A stretch of DNA of 64,000 nucleotides, from NCBI GenBank assembly GCA_019635875.1, contig JAHBYP010000007.1, positions 1-64,000 on the forward strand, read 5' to 3'. This DNA comes from Alphaproteobacteria bacterium (GTDB lineage Bacteria > Pseudomonadota > Alphaproteobacteria > Reyranellales > Reyranellaceae). Below the pieces are notes generated by a model. The model ran no database searches and was not told the DNA's origin. It saw only the letters and a list, made by a program, of their open reading frames with translations. Shown in pieces: positions 5,372-17,652 of this stretch (its first letter is position 1; each line of letters opens with the position of its first letter). Made by a program: the position numbers and the translations under genes.

Positions 5372-5493
5372 CCTTCCCCCGGAGGGGGAAGGTGCCCGAA
5401 GGGCGGAAGGGGGATGTCGAAGCCGGACACCGGTTTCGTTGAGGCATCCCCCATCCGGCGCTGCGCGCCACCTTCCCCCTCCGGGGGAAGGGG
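5372..5493. repeat. family A palindromic repeat, copy 2
   Basis: Full element with terminal hairpins (arms CCTTCCCCC and GGGGGAAGG). The central loop differs from other copies: after GGGGGATGTCGAAG it reads CCGGACACCGG and TTTCGTTGAGGCATCCCCC. It fills the gap between the hydrolase and the membrane-protein gene and ends 19 bases before ATG 5513. Confidence 0.85.
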
Positions 5494-6896: not shown

Positions 6897-6911
6897 CGCA
6901 ATCTCCTCTTA

Positions 6912-7040
6912 CCTTCCCCCGGAGGGGGAAGGTGCCCGAAGGGCGGATGGGGGATGTCGAAGACGAACGCAGGAGTTCGTCTTCGACATCCCCCATCCGT
7001 CAGCGCTACGCGCTGCCACCTTCCCCCTCCGGGGGAAGGT
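6912..7040. repeat. family A palindromic repeat, copy 3
   Basis: Complete copy with both terminal hairpins, the block GGGGGATGTCGAAGACG and its complement. Between two co-directional minus-strand genes. Confidence 0.88.
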
Positions 7041-9029: not shown

Positions 9030-9127
9030 GCCGATTTCCTCCATCGGCGGCGGTTATAGCGCAGCCGGCGTGCTTTGGGCCGCCCAATCCTGATATGACA
9101 GGCTCAACGAGAGCGTGGGGAGGCGAC

Positions 9128-10192
9128 GTGGCATCCGTCGAGCTCAGGAACTTGACCCGGCGGTTCGGCGCCACGGCGGCGGTCGACGACGTCTCGCTGC
9201 GCATCGAGCACGGCCAGCTGGTCTGCCTGCTGGGCCCCTCGGGCTGCGGCAAGACCACCACCCTGCGCCTGATCGCCGGCTTCATCGAGCCGTCGGCCGG
9301 CGAGATCGTGGTGGGCGAGAAGGTGGTCTCCTCGGCGGCGCGCACCGTGCCGCCCGAGGGCCGCAACATGTCGATGATCTTCCAGAGCTACGCGCTGTGG
9401 CCGCACATGACGGTGGCGCAGAACGTCGCCTATGGCCTGAAGCTGCGCAAGTTCGATGCGGCCACCATCGCCGGCAAGCTCGACGCGATCCTGAGCACGA
9501 CCCGGCTCAAGCCGCTGGCCGAGCGCTATCCCGCCGAGCTCTCCGGCGGCCAGCAGCAGCGCGTCTCGCTGGCGCGCGCCCTGGTGGTCGAACCCGAGAC
9601 CCTGCTGCTCGACGAGCCGCTCAGCAACCTCGACGCCAACCTGCGCGAGGAGATGCGTTTCGAGATCCGCCGCCTGCACGACCAGTACCGCTACACCACG
9701 GTCTACGTCACCCACGACCAGGCCGAGGCGATGACCACCGCCGACCTGATCGCCGTGATGAATCAGGGCACGGTCGAGCAGCTGGGCTCGCCCGAGGAGG
9801 TCTATTACCGGCCGTCATCGGAGTTCGTCGCGCGGTTCATCGGCGGCAGCAACATCCTGCGCGGCCTTGCCGCCGACCAGGCGCGGGTGATGATCGCCGG
9901 GGTGGCGCTGCTCACCTCCGGCCTGGCGCTCGAGCCCGGCCGGGAGGTGCCGGTGTCGATCCGCCAGCACGCCATCCGTCTGCTGGGCGCGGCGCCCGAC
10001 GCCAGCCTCGGCAATGTCCTGCCGGCCACCGTGACGCGGCAGATCTTCCTCGGCGCGACGCGTGACTTCTTCCTGACATTGCAGGACGGCACCGAGCTGC
10101 GGGTGACGGCGCCGCCCGAGCCGGCCATTGCGCCGGGCACGGCGGTCTGGCTCCATCTGCCGGCGGAGCATTGCCGGGCGCTGGCAAGGTGA
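9128..10192 (+). CDS. ABC importer ATPase (Fbp/Pot type)
   Basis: 354 residues. Nucleotide-binding domain with Walker A GPSGCGKTT, Q-loop IFQSYALWPHM, signature LSGGQQQRVSLARAL, Walker [13 protein letters not shown] and H-loop YVTHDQAEA, followed by a TOBE-like C-terminal regulatory domain (about residues 240-354). GTG 9128 is chosen because GGGGAGG sits 4 bases upstream; an ATG at 9095 has no such site. This subfamily (FbpC/PotA/PhnT-like) energises uptake of iron, polyamines or small organic ions. It opens the operon-like run with the binding protein (10210) and the permease (11455). The repeat between binding protein and permease does not break the direction of transcription. Confidence 0.92.
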   Translation: MASVELRNLTRRFGATAAVDDVSLRIEHGQLVCLLGPSGCGKTTTLRLIAGFIEPSAGEIVVGEKVVSSAARTVPPEGRNMSMIFQSYALWPHMTVAQNVAYGLKLRKFDAATIAGKLDAILSTTRLKPLAERYPAELSGGQQQRVSLARALVVEPETLLLDEPLSNLDANLREEMRFEIRRLHDQYRYTTVYVTHDQAEAMTTADLIAVMNQGTVEQLGSPEEVYYRPSSEFVARFIGGSNILRGLAADQARVMIAGVALLTSGLALEPGREVPVSIRQHAIRLLGAAPDASLGNVLPATVTRQIFLGATRDFFLTLQDGTELRVTAPPEPAIAPGTAVWLHLPAEHCRALAR

Positions 10193-10209
10193 CGCGGGAG
10201 GATCAGGCC

Positions 10210-11274
10210 ATGACGAAGAAGACGTTGTCGCGGCGCAGCCTGCTGCAGGGCTCGGCGCTGCTTGCCGCTGGCGCGATCGCCACACCGGTACGCGGCGCGC
10301 CGCCCGAGGCGCAGAAGATCACGCCCGCCCTGATCGAGGCGGCGAAGAAGGAGGGCAAGCTCTCCTGGTACACCTCGGTCGACCTGCCGGTGGCGGAGCG
10401 GATCGGCAAGGCCTTCGAGGCGCGCTATCCCGGCATTGCCGTGCGCGTGCAGCGCTCCGGCGCCGAGCGCATCTACCAGCGCATCGGCCAGGAGTACGCG
10501 GCGAAGATCTACAACGTCGACGTGGTCAACAGCTCCGACGCCGCGCACCTGATCGTGTGGAAGCGCGACGAGCTGCTGGCGCCCTATTTGCCCGAGGACG
10601 TGGCGCAGCATTACCCGGCGGCCCATCGCGACGCCGACGGCATGTACGCGACCTGGCGCATCACGCTTTCGCCGATCGCCTACAACACCCGCCTGGTGAA
10701 GGCGGAGGACGCGCCCAAGGGTTTTAGCGACCTGCTCGACGCGAAGTGGACGGGCAAGATCGTCAAGGCGCATCCCGGCTACAGCGGCACGATCATGACC
10801 GCCACCCAGCAGCTTTCGCGCGACCTCGGCTGGGAGTTCTTCGAGCGCCTGGCCAAGCAGCGCATCATGCAGGTGCAGTCCGCCGCCGATCCGCCGAAGA
10901 AAGTTGTGCTGGGCGAGCGCGCGGTGATGGCCGACGGCACGGAATACGTCTGCTCGCTGATGAAGGCCAAGGGCGAGCCGATCGAGATCGTCTATGCCAG
11001 CGAGGGCACACCGCTGATCACCGGCCCGTCGGCGATCTTCAGGCGCGCACCCAATCCCAACGCGGCGCGGCTGTTCCATTCCTGGTCGATGTCGGCCGAG
11101 GCGCAGCAGCTCAACGTCGAGATCGGCGCGCTGCGCACGGTGCATCCGCAGGTCAAGGCCTTCCCCGGCCGGCCGGCGCTCAAGGACGTCAAGCTGCTGC
11201 GCGAGGACGCCGCGGCGGTGGCCAAGGATGCCGAGCGCATCAAGGAACGCTACGTCCAGCTGTTCAAGGTGTGA
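10210..11274 (+). CDS. Tat-exported extracellular solute-binding protein
   Basis: 354 residues. The N-terminus has a twin-arginine signal, LSRRSLLQGSALLAAGAIA, with a cleavage region around VRGAPPEAQ, implying export of a folded, possibly cofactor- or metal-loaded protein. The mature part is a type 2 periplasmic binding protein of the FbpA/spermidine family (KLSWYTSVDLPVAERIGKAFE; WSMSAEAQQLN near the end). ATG 10210 follows GGGAGGATCAGGCC, a good site. It sits between its ATPase (18 bases upstream) and permease. The ligand is unknown: FbpA-like proteins bind ferric ion, but members of this fold also bind thiamine, phosphonates and other small anions. Confidence 0.88.
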   Translation: MTKKTLSRRSLLQGSALLAAGAIATPVRGAPPEAQKITPALIEAAKKEGKLSWYTSVDLPVAERIGKAFEARYPGIAVRVQRSGAERIYQRIGQEYAAKIYNVDVVNSSDAAHLIVWKRDELLAPYLPEDVAQHYPAAHRDADGMYATWRITLSPIAYNTRLVKAEDAPKGFSDLLDAKWTGKIVKAHPGYSGTIMTATQQLSRDLGWEFFERLAKQRIMQVQSAADPPKKVVLGERAVMADGTEYVCSLMKAKGEPIEIVYASEGTPLITGPSAIFRRAPNPNAARLFHSWSMSAEAQQLNVEIGALRTVHPQVKAFPGRPALKDVKLLREDAAAVAKDAERIKERYVQLFKV

Positions 11275-11327
11275 GCATGGCCGCGCCACGCCAGCGCCGC
11301 TTCAGGGCATGAGGGCTGACGCTCTTG

Positions 11328-11452
11328 CCTTCCCCCGGAGGGGGAAGGTGCCCGAAGGGCGGAAGGGGGATGCTGAAGACGAACGCGAGAGTCCGTCTTC
11401 GACATCCCCCTTCCGTCGCGCGGCGCGCGCCACCTTCCCCCTCCGGGGGAAG
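11328..11452. repeat. family A palindromic repeat, copy 4
   Basis: Complete copy, including GGTGCCCGAAGGGCGGAAGG and the terminal arms. Its last arm, GGGGGAAG, ends 2 bases before ATG 11455 of the permease, or 14 before ATG 11467, so the repeat appears to provide ribosome-binding sequence. Confidence 0.88.
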
Positions 11453-11454
11453 CT

Positions 11455-13149
11455 ATGGGTCGTTCGATGACCCGCACGCTCGACTTCTCGCGCCCCGTGC
11501 TGATCGCGTTCATCGCGATCCTCTGCGTGCTGATCGTGCTGCCGCTGGCGTGGCTGGTGATCTTCAGCCTCGGCGACCGCCAGGGCGGCATGACGATCGA
11601 CAATTTCGTCACGCTGTTCGGCGATCCCAGCTTCGCCGGGCCGCTGATGACCACCCTGATCATCGCCACCTCGGTCGGCGCGATATGCTGCCTGGTCGCG
11701 GCACCGCTGGGCTGGCTGGTGGCGCGCACCGACATGCCGCTGCGGCGCACGGTGCGCGTGCTGGTCATGGCCTCGCTGGTGACGCCGCCCTTCGTCGGCG
11801 CCATCGCCTGGGAGATGCTGGCGGCGCCCAACAGCGGCCTGCTCAACCAGCTCTACCGCATCCTCACCGGCGCGCCGCCCGACCAGGCGCTGCTCGACAT
11901 CTACTCGCTCAGCGGCCTGATCTTCGTCATCGCCTGCTACACCTTCCCCTACGTCTTCATCCTCGTGTCCAACGCGCTCGACCGCATGCCCGGCGAGCTC
12001 GAGGACGCATCCTCGATGCTGGGCGGCGGGCGCTGGCAGACCGCCCGGCGCATCACCGTGCCACTGGCGCTGCCGACCCTCGTCGCCGGCGCGCTGGTCG
12101 CCTTCCTACAGGCGCTGAACCTCTTCGGCTCGCCGGCGATCCTCGCCCTGCCGGCCGGCTTCCACACGCTCACCACCAAGATCTGGAGCCTGTTCCAGTT
12201 CCCGCCCAAGCCCGAGCTGGCCGCCGCCGCGGCCCTGCCGCTGCTCGTGCTGACCATCGTGCTCCTGCGCACGCAATCCTGGATCCTCGGGCGGCGCGGC
12301 TACAGCGTCGTCGGCGGCAAGTACGGCGCGCCGCGCGTCGTGCGGCTGGGCGCGCTCAAATGGCCGGCGCTGGCCTTCGGCCTGACCGTGCTGATGATGC
12401 CTGTCGTGCTGCCCTACCTGGCATTGCTCAACACCGCATTCTCGCGCATCGCCTCGCGGCTGATCTCGTTCGACACCGTCACCCTGCACAACGTCCACTT
12501 CACCTTCTTCGAGCTCAGCTCGACCATGCCGGCGCTGAAGAACACCTTCCTGCTGGCGGTGCTGTCGGCGACGCTCTGCGCGCTGCTCGCGCTGGTGATT
12601 GCCTATGTCGTGGCGCGGCAGGCGGCGCGCGGCCATCGCGCGCTGGGCTTCCTCGCCACCGCGCCGCTGGCGATCCCCGGCATCGTGCTGGGCGTCGGCC
12701 TGTTCCTGAGCTACACGCGCCCGCCGCTGCAGCTCTACGGCACGCTGTGGATCCTGCTGCTGGCCTATATCACCATCGAGCTGCCGGCGGCCTATCAGCA
12801 GCTGCGCTCGGCCTTCCATGCCGTGCATCCCGAGCTCGAGGAGGCCAGCCGCATCCTCGGCGCCACGCGGCTGGGCGCGCTGCGCGACGTCACCGCGCCA
12901 TTGCTGCGCTCCGGCGTGATCGCCACCTGGTGCATCATCTTCGTCGCCGTGATACGCGAGCTGTCGGCGGCGGTGATCCTCTTCACGTCGGAGACCAAGG
13001 TGGTGTCGGTGCTGATCTTCGACCTCAAGGAAAGCGGCGACATCGGCGCCATCGCGGTGCTGAGCCTGGCCATGATCCTGACCACCACGGGCGTCATCGT
13101 CGTCGCCAACCGGGCGGGCGGCAGCTGGCGGGAGGCCGCGAGGGCATGA
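11455..13149 (+). CDS. ABC importer permease, duplicated (FbpB-like)
   Basis: 564 residues with two consecutive permease halves of about six membrane helices each. Each half has an EAA-type coupling loop: ELEDASSMLGGGRWQTARRI in the first, ELEEASRILGATRLGALRDV in the second. This tandem arrangement is typical of FbpB-type permeases. Together with the ATPase (9128) and the Tat-exported binding protein (10210) it forms a complete importer. ATG 11455 lies right behind a family A repeat; ATG 11467 (MTRTLDF) is an alternative start. The gene ends 7 bases before the flavoprotein at 13157, which strongly suggests co-transcription of transport and redox genes. Confidence 0.92.
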   Translation: MGRSMTRTLDFSRPVLIAFIAILCVLIVLPLAWLVIFSLGDRQGGMTIDNFVTLFGDPSFAGPLMTTLIIATSVGAICCLVAAPLGWLVARTDMPLRRTVRVLVMASLVTPPFVGAIAWEMLAAPNSGLLNQLYRILTGAPPDQALLDIYSLSGLIFVIACYTFPYVFILVSNALDRMPGELEDASSMLGGGRWQTARRITVPLALPTLVAGALVAFLQALNLFGSPAILALPAGFHTLTTKIWSLFQFPPKPELAAAAALPLLVLTIVLLRTQSWILGRRGYSVVGGKYGAPRVVRLGALKWPALAFGLTVLMMPVVLPYLALLNTAFSRIASRLISFDTVTLHNVHFTFFELSSTMPALKNTFLLAVLSATLCALLALVIAYVVARQAARGHRALGFLATAPLAIPGIVLGVGLFLSYTRPPLQLYGTLWILLLAYITIELPAAYQQLRSAFHAVHPELEEASRILGATRLGALRDVTAPLLRSGVIATWCIIFVAVIRELSAAVILFTSETKVVSVLIFDLKESGDIGAIAVLSLAMILTTTGVIVVANRAGGSWREAARA

Positions 13150-13156
13150 GCGAGAC

Positions 13157-14023
13157 ATGAGCGAGATCTGGGACGTCGTCGTGATCGGTGCCGGCCCGGC
13201 GGGCCTGCGGGCCGCCGCCGTCGCGGCCAGGGCCGGGGCGCGGGTGATGTGCATCGACAAGCTCGGGCCGGGCGGCCTGATGATGAATCTCGGCGAGATC
13301 CACGATGCGCCGGCGGAGGCCGCGGACATGACCGGGCCGGACTTCATCGCCGCGCTGCTCGACCAGGCCACCGAGGCCGGCGTCGAGATGGGCTTCGGCG
13401 AGGTCACGGCATTGAACCCCGGTGCGACCTGGTCGGTGATCGCCGACGAGACGCATGCCGCGCGCGCGGTGATCGTCGCCTCGGGTCTCAGCCATGGCAC
13501 GCTCGGTCTGGCCGAGGAGGAACGCTACCTCGGGCAGGGCATCTCGCACTGCGCCGCCTGCGACGGGCCGCTCTACGCCGGCCAGCCGGTGGTCGTGGTC
13601 GGCGGAGAGGGCTGGGCGGTGCAGGAAGCGCGCGAGCTCGCCGGCATGGTCGGCTCCGTCACGGTCATTGCCGAGGCGGCGCCGTCGCTGCCCAACGTCA
13701 CCGCCATGCCCGGCCGCATCATCGCGCTCGATGGCGACGACGGCCTGCGGGGGCTGGTGATCGAGCGCGGCGGGCAGACCATGCGGCTGGAGACGCGCGC
13801 GCTCTTTCCCTATGTCGGCCGCAAGCCGGCCTGCGGCTTCGTCGCCGCCGAGCGCGATGCCGCGGGCGCGCTGGTCGTCGGCGCCGATGGCGCGACCTCG
13901 GCGCCGGGCCTGTTCGCGGCCGGCGACGTGCGCTCGGGCGCGCCCGAAACCATCGCGCAGGCGCTGGCCGATGCGGAGAAGGCCGGCGCTGCCGCTGCCG
14001 CCTGGGCCGCTTCTCATCGCTGA
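13157..14023 (+). CDS. thioredoxin-reductase-like FAD/NAD(P)H disulfide reductase
   Basis: 288 residues, slightly shorter than bacterial TrxB (about 310-320). FAD motif VVVIGAGPAGLRAA near residues 7-20, redox-active pair Cys132-Ala-Ala-Cys135-Asp in SHCAACDGPLY, nucleotide motif VVVVGGEGWAVQEA near 145-158, and the final FAD-binding segment APGLFAAGDVRSG. The usual GxGxxxxE motif is altered to GGEGWAVQE. It reduces a disulfide or, given the neighbour, possibly a selenenylsulfide at NAD(P)H expense. Its position between an importer and the UGSC selenoprotein gene at 14257 makes that protein the natural candidate partner instead of thioredoxin; this is inference. Confidence 0.88.
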   Translation: MSEIWDVVVIGAGPAGLRAAAVAARAGARVMCIDKLGPGGLMMNLGEIHDAPAEAADMTGPDFIAALLDQATEAGVEMGFGEVTALNPGATWSVIADETHAARAVIVASGLSHGTLGLAEEERYLGQGISHCAACDGPLYAGQPVVVVGGEGWAVQEARELAGMVGSVTVIAEAAPSLPNVTAMPGRIIALDGDDGLRGLVIERGGQTMRLETRALFPYVGRKPACGFVAAERDAAGALVVGADGATSAPGLFAAGDVRSGAPETIAQALADAEKAGAAAAAWAASHR

Positions 14024-14031
14024 CAATCTTA

Positions 14032-14158
14032 CCTTCCCCCGGAGGGGGAAGGTGCCCAAAGGGCGGAAGGGGGATGTCGAAGACGAACGTAGGAGTCCAT
14101 CTTCGACATCCCCCTTCCGTCGCGCTGCGCGCGCCACCTTCCCCCTTCGGGGGAAGGG
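14032..14158. repeat. family A palindromic repeat, copy 5
   Basis: Complete copy between the flavoprotein and the selenoprotein gene, with both outer hairpins and the inner GTCTTCGACATCCCCC-type stem (here with one change, CATCTTCGAC). It ends about 100 bases before ATG 14257. Confidence 0.88.
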
Positions 14159-14256: not shown

Positions 14257-14778
14257 ATGAAGATCGTCAACCCCAGCTTCGGCCTGTCGGCCACCGGCGG
14301 CGAGAAGATGGCCACCGCGGCGGTCGACTGGCTGCGCGATCCGATCGCGCTGGTCACCAACGCCAAGCCCAACGCGCGCGAGCTGCTCGACGGCATCCGC
14401 ACCAAGCTCGGCGCGATCCGGCCGATCGACAATATCGACTTCCTCGGCAAGGACAGCGCCAGCCAGCCGGCGCCCTCCGCGCTGTATGACGAGGTCGCCA
14501 GGAACTACAAGGCGGCGCTCCTCGCCATAGCCGATTGAGGCTCCTGTTCATCGTGGAGTTTCCACGACAGCGTCGAACTGGAGAAGAAGGGCGTCACGGC
14601 CTACGTGATCGCCACCGAGACGTTCAAGTCGCTGGTTCTTGCGCAGGCCAAGGCGCGCAAGATCACCCCGCGGCTGATCGTCGTGAAGCATCCCATCGGC
14701 GGCCTCAATGCCCAGGAGCTCGCCGAGCGCATCGAGACCGCCACCGCCGGCCTGACCAAGGTCATGAGCGGCGGCTGA
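14257..14778 (+). CDS. UGSC-family selenoprotein (in-frame TGA = Sec94)
   Basis: Reading TGA 14536-14538 as selenocysteine gives one continuous protein of 173 residues; reading it as stop gives 93 residues and orphans a perfectly coding 79-residue continuation. The residues at and after the TGA are U-G-S-C (Sec94, Cys97) followed by SSWSFHDSVELEKKG, the diagnostic region of the UGSC (seleno)protein family, some of whose members carry Cys in place of Sec. The N-terminal half (MKIVNPSFGLSATGGEKM) precedes the motif; the C-terminal half is alpha/beta with VTAYVIATETF and PRLIVVKHPIGGLN. ATG 14257 follows GGGAGGAAG. No signal peptide, so cytoplasmic. UxxC motifs are normally redox or nucleophilic centres; the adjacent thioredoxin-reductase-like gene fits. 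The reaction is not known to me. Confidence 0.88.
14539..14570 (+). promoter_or_regulatory. SECIS-like selenocysteine insertion hairpin
   Basis: Directly 3' of the TGA the mRNA can fold into an upper stem CGUGG (14552-14556) / CCACG (14562-14566) closed by loop AGUUU, and a lower stem CUGU (14544-14547) / ACAG (14567-14570) separated by an unpaired UCAU on the 5' side. Counting the U of UGA as 1, loop bases G and U fall at positions 23 and 24, the same positions as the SelB-contacting loop G and U of the E. coli fdhF element. The unpaired UCAU includes a U next to the stem, comparable to the bulged U there. Confidence 0.78.
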
Positions 14779-14801: not shown

Positions 14802-15860
14802 ATGACCGATACGTCCCAGGCCGATCCCGCCGACGCCGAACTCATCGACGTCGGCGACGTCGACGTCGCGGCGTTCAACGACTATGCGGTGCAGCAGGGC
14901 TGGAGCGACGGCATGCCGCTCTATATCCCCACCGAGGCGGCGGTCGAGAAGTTCGTCGCGGTCTGTCGCGGCGACAACCGGCCGTTCCTGCCGGTCTCGC
15001 CGCGCTCGGTGGTGCCGACCCTGCAGAGCCTCGCCGCCAACGCGGTGATGGCCGGCTGCAAGCCGGAATATTTCCCGGTGGTCACCGCGGCGCTGCACGC
15101 CGTGCTGAACCCGGACTACAACCTGCACGGCACGCTGGCGACGACGCATCCCTGCGCGCCGATGCTGCTGGTCAGCGGGCCGATGCGGCACACGCTGAAG
15201 ATCAATTGCGGCAGCAACTGCTTCGGCCAGGGCTGGCAGGCCAACGCCACCATCGGCCGCGCGCTGGGCCTGATCCTGCTCAACGTCGGCGGCGCCAAGC
15301 CGGGCGAGATGGATCGCTCGACCCAGGGTTCGCCGGCGAAGTTCACCTTCTGCTTCGGCGAGAACGAGGAAGAGAGCCCGTGGGAGCCCTACCACGTGCG
15401 CCGCGGCTTCAACGCGAAAGACAGCGTGGTGACGGCGATGGCCGGCGAGGCGCCGCACAACATCAACGACCACGGCAGCACCTCGGGCGACGGCATCATC
15501 ACGACCATGGCCGGCACGATCGGGCAGGTCGGCGCCAACACGATCTACGGCAAGGGTCCGTACTTCGTGGTGGTCGGACCGGAGCATGCCGCGACCCTGG
15601 CGCGCGACGGCTACACCATCGAGAGCATGCAGGCCGCGATCCACGAGCGGTCCAAGGTGCACGTCGACCGCGTCTCGAAGGAAAACCAGCGGGAGTACGC
15701 GGGGTCGAACCGCCCGCGGCAGGGCGACTACTACTACATCGCGCCCACCCCGCAGGACATCCACATCCTGGTGGCCGGCGGGCCGGGCAAGCACTCCGCC
15801 TTCATCCCGTCCTTCGGTGGCACCACCGTCAGCTCGGTGCGCGTCGCGCCGCCGACCTGA
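14802..15860 (+). CDS. UGSC-associated protein, paralogue 1, unknown function
   Basis: 352 residues, no signal peptide or membrane helix. I do not recognise a characterised family. It starts 23 bases after the selenoprotein stop and is clearly paralogous to the next gene: both carry VMAGCKPEYFPVV / VLAGCRPAELPLVV, a block around NCGSNCFGQG / NAGTNMLGPG, then IGRALGLILLNVGGA / IGRAVALVLRNIGGA, KFTFCFGE / KYTFCFAE, and the C-terminal DIHILVAGGPGK / DIHIIVAGGAGA. This copy has two extra cysteines (CGSNC) absent from the second. The Gly-rich C-terminus resembles a phosphate- or nucleotide-binding loop, but that is only a resemblance. Position suggests it works with the selenoprotein, for example as the enzyme whose catalytic cycle the UxxC centre restores. 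Confidence 0.85.
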   Translation: MTDTSQADPADAELIDVGDVDVAAFNDYAVQQGWSDGMPLYIPTEAAVEKFVAVCRGDNRPFLPVSPRSVVPTLQSLAANAVMAGCKPEYFPVVTAALHAVLNPDYNLHGTLATTHPCAPMLLVSGPMRHTLKINCGSNCFGQGWQANATIGRALGLILLNVGGAKPGEMDRSTQGSPAKFTFCFGENEEESPWEPYHVRRGFNAKDSVVTAMAGEAPHNINDHGSTSGDGIITTMAGTIGQVGANTIYGKGPYFVVVGPEHAATLARDGYTIESMQAAIHERSKVHVDRVSKENQREYAGSNRPRQGDYYYIAPTPQDIHILVAGGPGKHSAFIPSFGGTTVSSVRVAPPT

Positions 15861-15877: not shown

Positions 15878-16879
15878 ATGGAATGGGGCAACCTGCCGGT
15901 CTTCGACGACGGCACCGTCTTCGAGGACGTGCAGGCCGCGCTGGCCGAGGCCGAGCAGGCCGACGGCCTGCCCATGGTGCCGCCCACCCGCCGTCGTCTC
16001 GAGGCGATGATCGAGGGCGTCGGCGCGCCCGAGAGTTCCTACGGTCCGATGCCGCCTTTGTTCGGCGAGGTCACGCCGGCCGCTGTGGCCTATCAATGCG
16101 TGCTGGCGGGTTGCCGGCCGGCGGAGTTGCCGCTGGTGGTGACGGCGGCGGCCTCGTGCCTGATGCCGGATTTCAACCTGCTGGGCATCTCGACCACGAC
16201 AGGCACGGCCTGCGTCGTCACCATCGTGCATGGGCCTGTGGCGCAGAGACTCGAGATGAACGCCGGCACCAACATGCTGGGCCCGGGCAACCGCGCCAAT
16301 GCCTGCATCGGTCGCGCCGTGGCGCTGGTGTTGCGCAACATCGGCGGCGCGCGGCCGCTGATCGGCGACATGGCGACCATGGGCCAGCCCGGCAAGTACA
16401 CCTTCTGCTTCGCCGAGGCCGATGCCGAGGACCCGGCGGCCGAGGCGGCATTCCCATCCTTCGCCACGCGCCACGGCGTTCCCGGCGGCGCAGACGCCGT
16501 CACGGTCCTCGGTGTATCCGGCACCATGGAGGTGCTGATCACGCCGCCCGGCGACACGCCTGAATCATCGCTCGCCGCCGTGCCGCATATCATGTGCGCC
16601 GGCGCGCTTGCCGGCGGCGCGTCGCGCAAGCCGGAGCGCGGCGAGCAAGCGTTGCTGCTGCCGCCCGAGCTGGCGCGGCTGCTGGGCAAGCGCGACTGGG
16701 ATCTGGCGCGCACGCAGCGATGGCTGTTCCAGCGCTGCAGCGAGCTGGGCACCGAGGTCGCGCGCCAGCCCGAGGACATCCACATCATCGTCGCCGGCGG
16801 CGCCGGCGCGAAAATGACCTACATGCCGCTATGGGGCGGCAGCACGGTGCCGGTCACCAGCCGGGTGGTGGAGCTGTAG
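15878..16879 (+). CDS. UGSC-associated protein, paralogue 2, unknown function
   Basis: 333 residues beginning at ATG 15878 (MEWGNLPVF), 17 bases after the stop of paralogue 1. Same fold by sequence as its neighbour (shared AGC(K/R)P, the IGRA helix, K(F/Y)TFCF, and DIHI(L/I)VAGG near the end). It lacks the CGSNC pair, having AGTNM at that place, but keeps Cys in VLAGCRP and in YTFCF. Two diverged copies side by side suggest a heterodimeric enzyme with one catalytic and one structural chain, as seen in many alpha/beta systems; this is inference. It closes the run of genes on this strand; an 80-base gap follows. Confidence 0.83.
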   Translation: MEWGNLPVFDDGTVFEDVQAALAEAEQADGLPMVPPTRRRLEAMIEGVGAPESSYGPMPPLFGEVTPAAVAYQCVLAGCRPAELPLVVTAAASCLMPDFNLLGISTTTGTACVVTIVHGPVAQRLEMNAGTNMLGPGNRANACIGRAVALVLRNIGGARPLIGDMATMGQPGKYTFCFAEADAEDPAAEAAFPSFATRHGVPGGADAVTVLGVSGTMEVLITPPGDTPESSLAAVPHIMCAGALAGGASRKPERGEQALLLPPELARLLGKRDWDLARTQRWLFQRCSELGTEVARQPEDIHIIVAGGAGAKMTYMPLWGGSTVPVTSRVVEL

Positions 16880-16962: not shown

Positions 16963-17652
16963 TTGGGCAGCATCTCGATTCCGGCACGGCCATTCCCTTA
17001 CCCCTATGACGGCAGGTTGATTGCTGCGGCAACGGCTCTGCTCGTCATCGACCTGCAGCGCGACTTCCTCTCGCCGGACGGCTACTTCGCCCGCAAGGGC
17101 TACGATCCGGCTCCGCTGCGCGCCATCCTGCCGGCGGTCAATCGGCTGATCGAGGCCGCGCGGGCGGCCGGCCTCCTCATCGTTCACACGCGTCAGGGTT
17201 ACCGGGCCGATCTCGCCGACATGACGCCCTACGAGCGCTGGCGGCGTCGGCGCGCCGGTCTTGAAGGCACCGACATCCTGCTGCGCTCGTCTCCAGGCTA
17301 CGAGATTGTGCCCGAGCTCAGCCGCGCCGACACCGACGTCGTCATCGACAAGACGGCGAACGGAGCCTTCACGCACACCGACCTTGAGCACGTTCTGCGG
17401 GCCAAAGGCGTAACGCATCTCTTTTTCACCGGATGCACCACGGATGTCTGCGTGCACACGACGCTCCGCGAAGCGCATGACCGCAATTTCCAGTGTTGTC
17501 TTGTCGAGGACGCCTGCGCCAGCGGCGACGCCTACGCCCACGAGGCCGCCATTCACATGGTGACGGTCGAGGACGGCATCTTCGGCACCGTCGCCAGGAC
17601 GGACGATGTCGTCGCCGCCCTCCGGCTGCTGGCTTCGAGCGAGCCTTCTTGA
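16963..17652 (+). CDS. isochorismatase-fold cysteine hydrolase
   Basis: 229 residues. Catalytic triad of the cysteine-hydrolase/isochorismatase superfamily is complete: Asp30 in LLVIDLQRDF, Lys130 in VIDKTANGAF, and Cys163 in FTGCTTDVCVHTTLREA. The pattern TDVCVHTTLREAHDRNF is like that of ureidoacrylate and biuret amidohydrolases (RutB/BiuH side of the family) more than true isochorismatases. Only TTG 16963 is available as start in this frame after the upstream TAG at 16924, and conserved-looking residues (PARPFPYPYDG) precede the first Asp, so the TTG start is plausible though no ribosome site is seen. If it is a biuret hydrolase it would feed the AtzF/AtzEG locus 30 kb downstream, but they are not linked in an operon. 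Confidence 0.82.
   Translation: MGSISIPARPFPYPYDGRLIAAATALLVIDLQRDFLSPDGYFARKGYDPAPLRAILPAVNRLIEAARAAGLLIVHTRQGYRADLADMTPYERWRRRRAGLEGTDILLRSSPGYEIVPELSRADTDVVIDKTANGAFTHTDLEHVLRAKGVTHLFFTGCTTDVCVHTTLREAHDRNFQCCLVEDACASGDAYAHEAAIHMVTVEDGIFGTVARTDDVVAALRLLASSEPS

Follow-up and report, generated by a model that had tools for sequence, protein, structure and literature searches.

A UGSC gene with an in-frame TGA and its neighborhood

The window (the whole 64,000-nucleotide stretch of alphaproteobacterial DNA analyzed here) carries a gene for a UGSC selenoprotein, preceded by an ABC transporter and a thioredoxin-reductase-like flavoprotein and followed by two paralogous genes, B1 and B2, and an isochorismatase-type hydrolase (Table 1). 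The UGSC frame opens with an ATG and runs through the internal TGA to the true stop, a second TGA at 14776-14778; its translation contains UGSC SSWSFHDSVELEKKG. The same start position, with the pattern M[RH]I-NP-[STA], is found in 11 orthologues, which indicates that this ATG is the correct start. As the preliminary description had it, the frame is open on either side of the TGA, and the translation is the one quoted there. Its assignment to the UGSC family also stands: PF24696 (‘UGSC’) matched the window protein with 111.2 bits (Pfam gathering cut-off 25), the U-G-S-C motif included, while the narrower NCBIfam equivalog NF041046 (UGSC_fam) fell short (106.5 bits, cut-off 125) because the window protein belongs to a divergent clade.

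Table 1. Genes and other features of the UGSC locus, by position in the window.
Feature	Position	Strand	Remarks
ABC transporter ATPase	9095..10192	+	Possible substrate uptake; association weak
ABC transporter solute-binding protein	10171..11274	+	Association weak
ABC transporter permease	11455..13149	+	Association weak
Thioredoxin-reductase-like flavoprotein, CxxC (CAAC)	13157..14023	+	TIGR01292 175 bits, cut-off 343; Pyr_redox_2
UGSC selenoprotein	14257..14778	+	173 residues, Sec at codon 94; translated with TGA=U; PF24696 E 7.5e-32; orthologues all TGA
Selenocysteine codon TGA	14536..14538	+	TGA in 113/113 family genes read with motif; TAG and matching tRNA-Sec anticodon in 3 Geodermatophilus genomes
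SECIS-like hairpin UCGUGGA-GUU-UCCACGA	14551..14567	+	Loop G at 14558, U at 14559
B1	14802..15860	+	352 residues; no Pfam or NCBIfam family; AlphaFold2 pLDDT 92.7
B2	15878..16879	+	B1 paralogue, 28% identity
Isochorismatase-type hydrolase, biuret amidohydrolase-like	16963..17652	+	NF050097 237 bits, cut-off 370; UGSC association uncertain

In the clade to which the window gene belongs (see below), a CxxC flavoprotein lies before or after the UGSC cluster at 20 loci, and the CxxC is kept in all 20; it is absent beside many other clade members and so cannot be universal. Counts of loci, here and below, are slightly inflated, since two routes sometimes led to loci of the same genome. The clade as a whole does not share the window's ABC transporter, which is nearest to the aminoethylphosphonate and polyamine types; a transporter of the branched-chain type is the common one there. 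When neighbors were clustered, with a codon-position filter applied, the variable neighbors in Reyranella-type genomes comprised this branched-chain-type transporter, an amidase, an amidohydrolase and a DHDPS-like enzyme. In several other genomes of the clade (five loci), UGSC is immediately preceded by a dimethylformamidase-beta-like protein (DMFA2_C).

A dispersed palindromic repeat of ~138 bases occurs in the window at 6899-7036, 11315-11452 and 14019-14156, with more copies near 5372, 44992 and 61115. Its arms, CTTCCCCC..GGGGGAAGG, surround CGGAAGGGGGATGTCGAAGACG, and the pattern matched 28 times versus 0.01 expected; in character it is REP- or MITE-like. One copy lies between the flavoprotein and UGSC genes, so that a single transcript is not certain.

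Comparative evidence for selenocysteine at the TGA

With the U of UGA as position 1, the hairpin 3' of the TGA spans positions 16-32 and its loop includes G23 and U24, which by our count is where the preliminary description had placed the loop G and U. An Rfam scan of the window returned zero matches. Taken by itself, the window hairpin has ordinary stability (z about −1.5), and 470 of 2000 synonymous recodings fold equally well. Such a hairpin, not unusually stable, is what one might expect if the TGA were a real stop and the downstream part a decayed or separate frame. The stability of this single hairpin, which is not significant alone, was dropped as evidence in favor of a family-wide test. 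Among distinct sequences, a hairpin with G at the loop start in the correct place was present in 86 of 89 family members, versus 16.7 ± 3.3 in synonymous recodings (60 rounds, maximum 25). All 29 distinct clade members use AGT for the loop serine, a codon that accounts for one of 124 serine codons in neighboring window genes. Between paralogues, moreover, the G21-C27 pair is replaced by C21-G27 (TGG-AGT-TTC vs. TGC-AGT-CTG types), a compensatory change. By these comparisons, the hairpin is under selection beyond coding need, family-wide.

The genome itself (17 contigs, completeness given as 100%) possesses the full selenocysteine machinery that the preliminary description had named for look-up: selA (520.7 bits), selB (457 bits), selC (72.3 bits, anticodon TCA) and selD (266.4 bits) were all found. 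The first three lie within ~3.6 kb of one another on contig C2, with selD ~16 kb further. The selD frame (L019:295-2517) encodes a 741-residue fusion with a dinucleotide-binding-like N-terminal part, much like the Ndh-SelD fusions known from aquatic bacteria. The genome also encodes a further, PrdB-like selenoprotein (C12:123915-124271), which reads U-P-F-C through a TGA; a second match, at C2:452965-453402, is a further candidate.

The Sec codon can also change in step with its tRNA. At three Geodermatophilus loci, TAG replaces TGA and is followed by the same hairpin, and these three genomes encode a tRNA of the tRNA-Sec family with a CTA anticodon, which ARAGORN labels tRNA-Pyl because of that anticodon. 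As UAG-encoded Sec in UGSC-motif proteins from the bacterial family of Geodermatophilus has already been published (PMC5330540, which cites an earlier paper), we regard the TAG genes as confirmation rather than discovery. This joint change of codon and anticodon argues against a real stop at 14536, as do the family-wide selection on the hairpin and the retention of the downstream half in all orthologues, always with TGA, and we give that reading next to no weight. Close homologues that end at the TGA, the other possibility raised in the preliminary description, were not encountered either, as 12 of 12 orthologues read through it and conserve the downstream part. Sequence comparison thus indicates that the TGA encodes selenocysteine and that the window gene is a genuine UGSC-family selenoprotein. 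That claim was right yet is not new, because the family was already known (PF24696, named in 2008).

Cysteine was found at the Sec site in none of the 113 family genes read, so selenium chemistry appears to matter. The ocean survey counted 255 Sec forms vs. 21 Cys forms of UGSC (PMC2398784).

The window gene represents a distinct clade

Searching 385 genomes from the class recovered the gene itself and 12 orthologues, 60-76% identical (58-74% over the whole protein) and each with a single internal TGA; next come paralogues, clearly set apart with identities of about 30%. UGSC genes were found in 75 of 76 genomes of the order, with one TGA in each among the matches listed, and the source genome has four. 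In the tree, the window type forms one clade of 44 leaves with no intruders (support 0.92). Named relatives are Reyranella, Vineibacter and other Alphaproteobacteria, and Actinomycetota also contribute members; the locus is present in the cultured species Vineibacter terrae. Judged from the sequences, the window copy is a member of a distinct clade with the set CxxC flavoprotein, UGSC, B1 and B2.

Another UGSC subfamily is marked by motifs of the AUGSCMPAV or UG[SA]CTPA type and is fused to a distant B (seven loci); in actinomycetes, it lies ~2-3 kb upstream of the UGSC-B1-B2 type.

UGSC is paired with a protein family of its own

The B family (~340 residues) accompanies UGSC almost everywhere. 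The source genome has exactly five B genes and four UGSC genes, all adjacent, the three other UGSC genes being adjoined by the same B family as the window gene. When loci were fetched from public genomes by B alone, UGSC was nearby at 76 of 80; at the remaining four, we looked for a UGSC remnant and found none. UGSC and B are also fused in a single frame in 29 cases, with one further case in which B comes first. One scan of public genomes yielded at least 583 members of the B family.

B matches neither described families nor solved structures. When 74 B proteins were compared with Pfam and NCBIfam, each family matched at most one of them, none significantly, and GrdE/PrdA models gave no match to any of the 74. 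We rejected B as a GrdE/PrdA relative for lack of family-model support; the pyruvoyl half of the glycine and proline reductases is thus not supported here. The AlphaFold2 model of B found nothing among solved structures at E ≤ 0.001 (best Z 5.8 over 89 residues), and sequence searches of the PDB with UGSC, B and PrdB-like proteins gave no usable match. The modeled B fold is possibly new, bearing in mind that a missing structural match does not prove a new fold.

In structure, B very weakly resembles class I fumarase and cyclic amide hydrolases (Foldseek E 0.004-0.1, TM <0.35). This would suit an enzyme in which the selenolate is a nucleophile but nothing is reduced overall, for instance a transferase or a hydrolase acting on amides or rings; amidase, amidohydrolase, dimethylformamidase-like and biuret-hydrolase-like neighbors in parts of the clade point the same way. 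The structural matches, however, are too weak to make B a relative of either enzyme, and the adjoining CxxC flavoprotein points to electron supply; we consider a purely nucleophilic role improbable. Less probable still is the binding or detoxification of a soft metal or metalloid (mercury, arsenic) by the Sec and Cys. Such a role has been proposed for some other Sec families (PMC13188914), but mercury- and arsenic-resistance genes do not recur among the annotated neighbors, and the invariant polar residues that B retains are of the kind usual in enzymes. The conserved residues of B include D36, R153, D171, K180 and E187.

The C-terminal tail of some canonical B proteins (nine loci) reads CVDGTC or CVDCE and might provide a mobile thiol pair. 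Neither B1 nor B2 of the window has such a tail; what their clade has instead is the CxxC flavoprotein.

The Sec domain of UGSC appears related to that of GrdB and PrdB

Proline and glycine reductases act through a selenol in an established manner (PMC13188914), and profile comparison links UGSC to their Sec subunits. An alignment of 103 UGSC sequences with 44 GrdB/PrdB-type sequences by hhalign, covering only about 83 columns, gave a probability of 91% (E 1.1e-6, score 46.6) and placed Sec against Sec and Cys against Cys. Null scores stayed well below this, at up to 23.4 in 150 column shuffles, up to 26.2 in 100 motif-preserving shuffles and 14.5 for the reversed profile. Earlier runs with smaller alignments were weak, and the GrdB HMM (PF07355) did not match the window UGSC at E 0.1. 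A search of the order with PF07355 found PrdB-like selenoproteins with U-P-x-C. An Entotheonella genome encodes a genuine GrdB reading U-G-S-C-N-R-C, UGSC's own motif. Taken together, the profiles and motifs are good evidence that the UGSC and GrdB/PrdB Sec domains share ancestry. The same Entotheonella genome has three full-length GrdB genes and a PrdB-like selenoprotein gene ~5 kb from UGSC and B genes.

In our predicted model of UGSC (pLDDT 89.6), five strands alternate with five helices, and Sec94 lies where the third strand ends and the next helix begins. Searches with this model (Foldseek and VIA) returned generic Rossmann- and flavodoxin-like chains, with no thioredoxin among the matches listed. 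UGSC has been assigned a likely Trx-like fold in print (PMC2398784 and PMC13188914); against this published assumption, the alternating α/β fold of the model does not look thioredoxin-like, bearing in mind that it is a prediction and not a solved structure. This bears on another view, in which UGSC would be a thioredoxin-like thiol-disulfide oxidoreductase with a general antioxidant role and B its protein substrate or redox partner. That view draws on the UxxC motif and the thioredoxin-reductase-like neighbor as well as on the published fold. The modeled fold and its structural matches speak against it, and the near-obligate pairing or fusion with B, together with the lack of Cys forms, fits a dedicated enzyme better, so we hold a general oxidoreductase to be unlikely.

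Discussion

We propose that UGSC is probably the Sec subunit of a two-component reductase, related to GrdB/PrdB, in which B is the other component and the flavoprotein the source of re-reduction. Our comparisons of genes and genomes support Sec insertion, the B partnership, the ancestry of the Sec domain and the frequent presence of the CxxC flavoprotein, and from these we infer the complex and its chemistry. On the comparative evidence, UGA is read as selenocysteine through the hairpin 3' of the codon. UGSC, with Sec in an alternating α/β domain apparently related to the GrdB/PrdB Sec domain, would pair with B as second subunit (here the paralogues B1 and B2), adjacency and fusion of the genes suggesting a physical complex. 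B would hold the substrate, and the selenolate would probably attack it, cleaving or reducing it as in the GrdB/PrdB enzymes. A selenenyl-sulfide would then form between the Sec and Cys of U-G-S-C, and in the window clade the adjacent CxxC flavoprotein would probably restore the selenol with NAD(P)H. The substrate is perhaps a small imported nitrogen compound, as the neighboring transporters and amide hydrolases weakly suggest.

In water samples, UGSC proteins rank with the most abundant selenoproteins (255 genes; PMC2398784), and a 2026 review lists the family without a function (PMC13188914). With the constant partner B and the link to the glycine and proline reductases, the ‘unknown redox protein’ becomes a concrete enzyme that can be tested. 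The interest thus lies in the B family and the GrdB/PrdB link of a long-uncharacterized selenoprotein, not in the selenoprotein itself; B, for all its size, has no model in Pfam or NCBIfam. More tentatively, and with the chances falling somewhat short of even, UGSC and B may form a widespread, unrecognized class of selenium-dependent reductases spanning many phyla, which would combine a GrdB/PrdB-type Sec domain with a substrate-binding subunit from no described family, possibly of a new fold, and, in the window clade, a dedicated flavoprotein reductase. In the literature, we found no report of the UGSC-B partnership, the GrdB/PrdB link or the window clade.

UGSC-B fusions recall an arrangement already in print. 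In the ocean survey (PMC2398784, Figure S1A), UGSC is fused to a conserved ‘Unknown_1’ domain, so that both are UGSC joined to a second conserved domain, and ‘Unknown_1’ may be B. The window flavoprotein and thioredoxin reductase (TIGR01292) are likewise comparable as flavoproteins with a CxxC, although the former scores under the TIGR01292 cut-off and forms its own group tied to UGSC loci. The window clade shares with the canonical UGSC family (PF24696; NF041046) the HMM match, the UGSC motif, Sec encoded by UGA and the SECIS. In contrast, it reads UGSCSSW where canonical UGSC has UGSC--C, its gene order is UGSC-B1-B2 rather than B-UGSC, and, unlike canonical UGSC, it often has the flavoprotein upstream. 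Compared with GrdB of glycine reductase and PrdB of D-proline reductase (PF07355), UGSC is without the N-terminal part of GrdB, and its partner B, unlike that of the glycine and proline reductases, is not GrdE/PrdA by any family model. The UxxC, however, is in the same place in all of them, and canonical UGSC and GrdB even have UxxCxxC in common.
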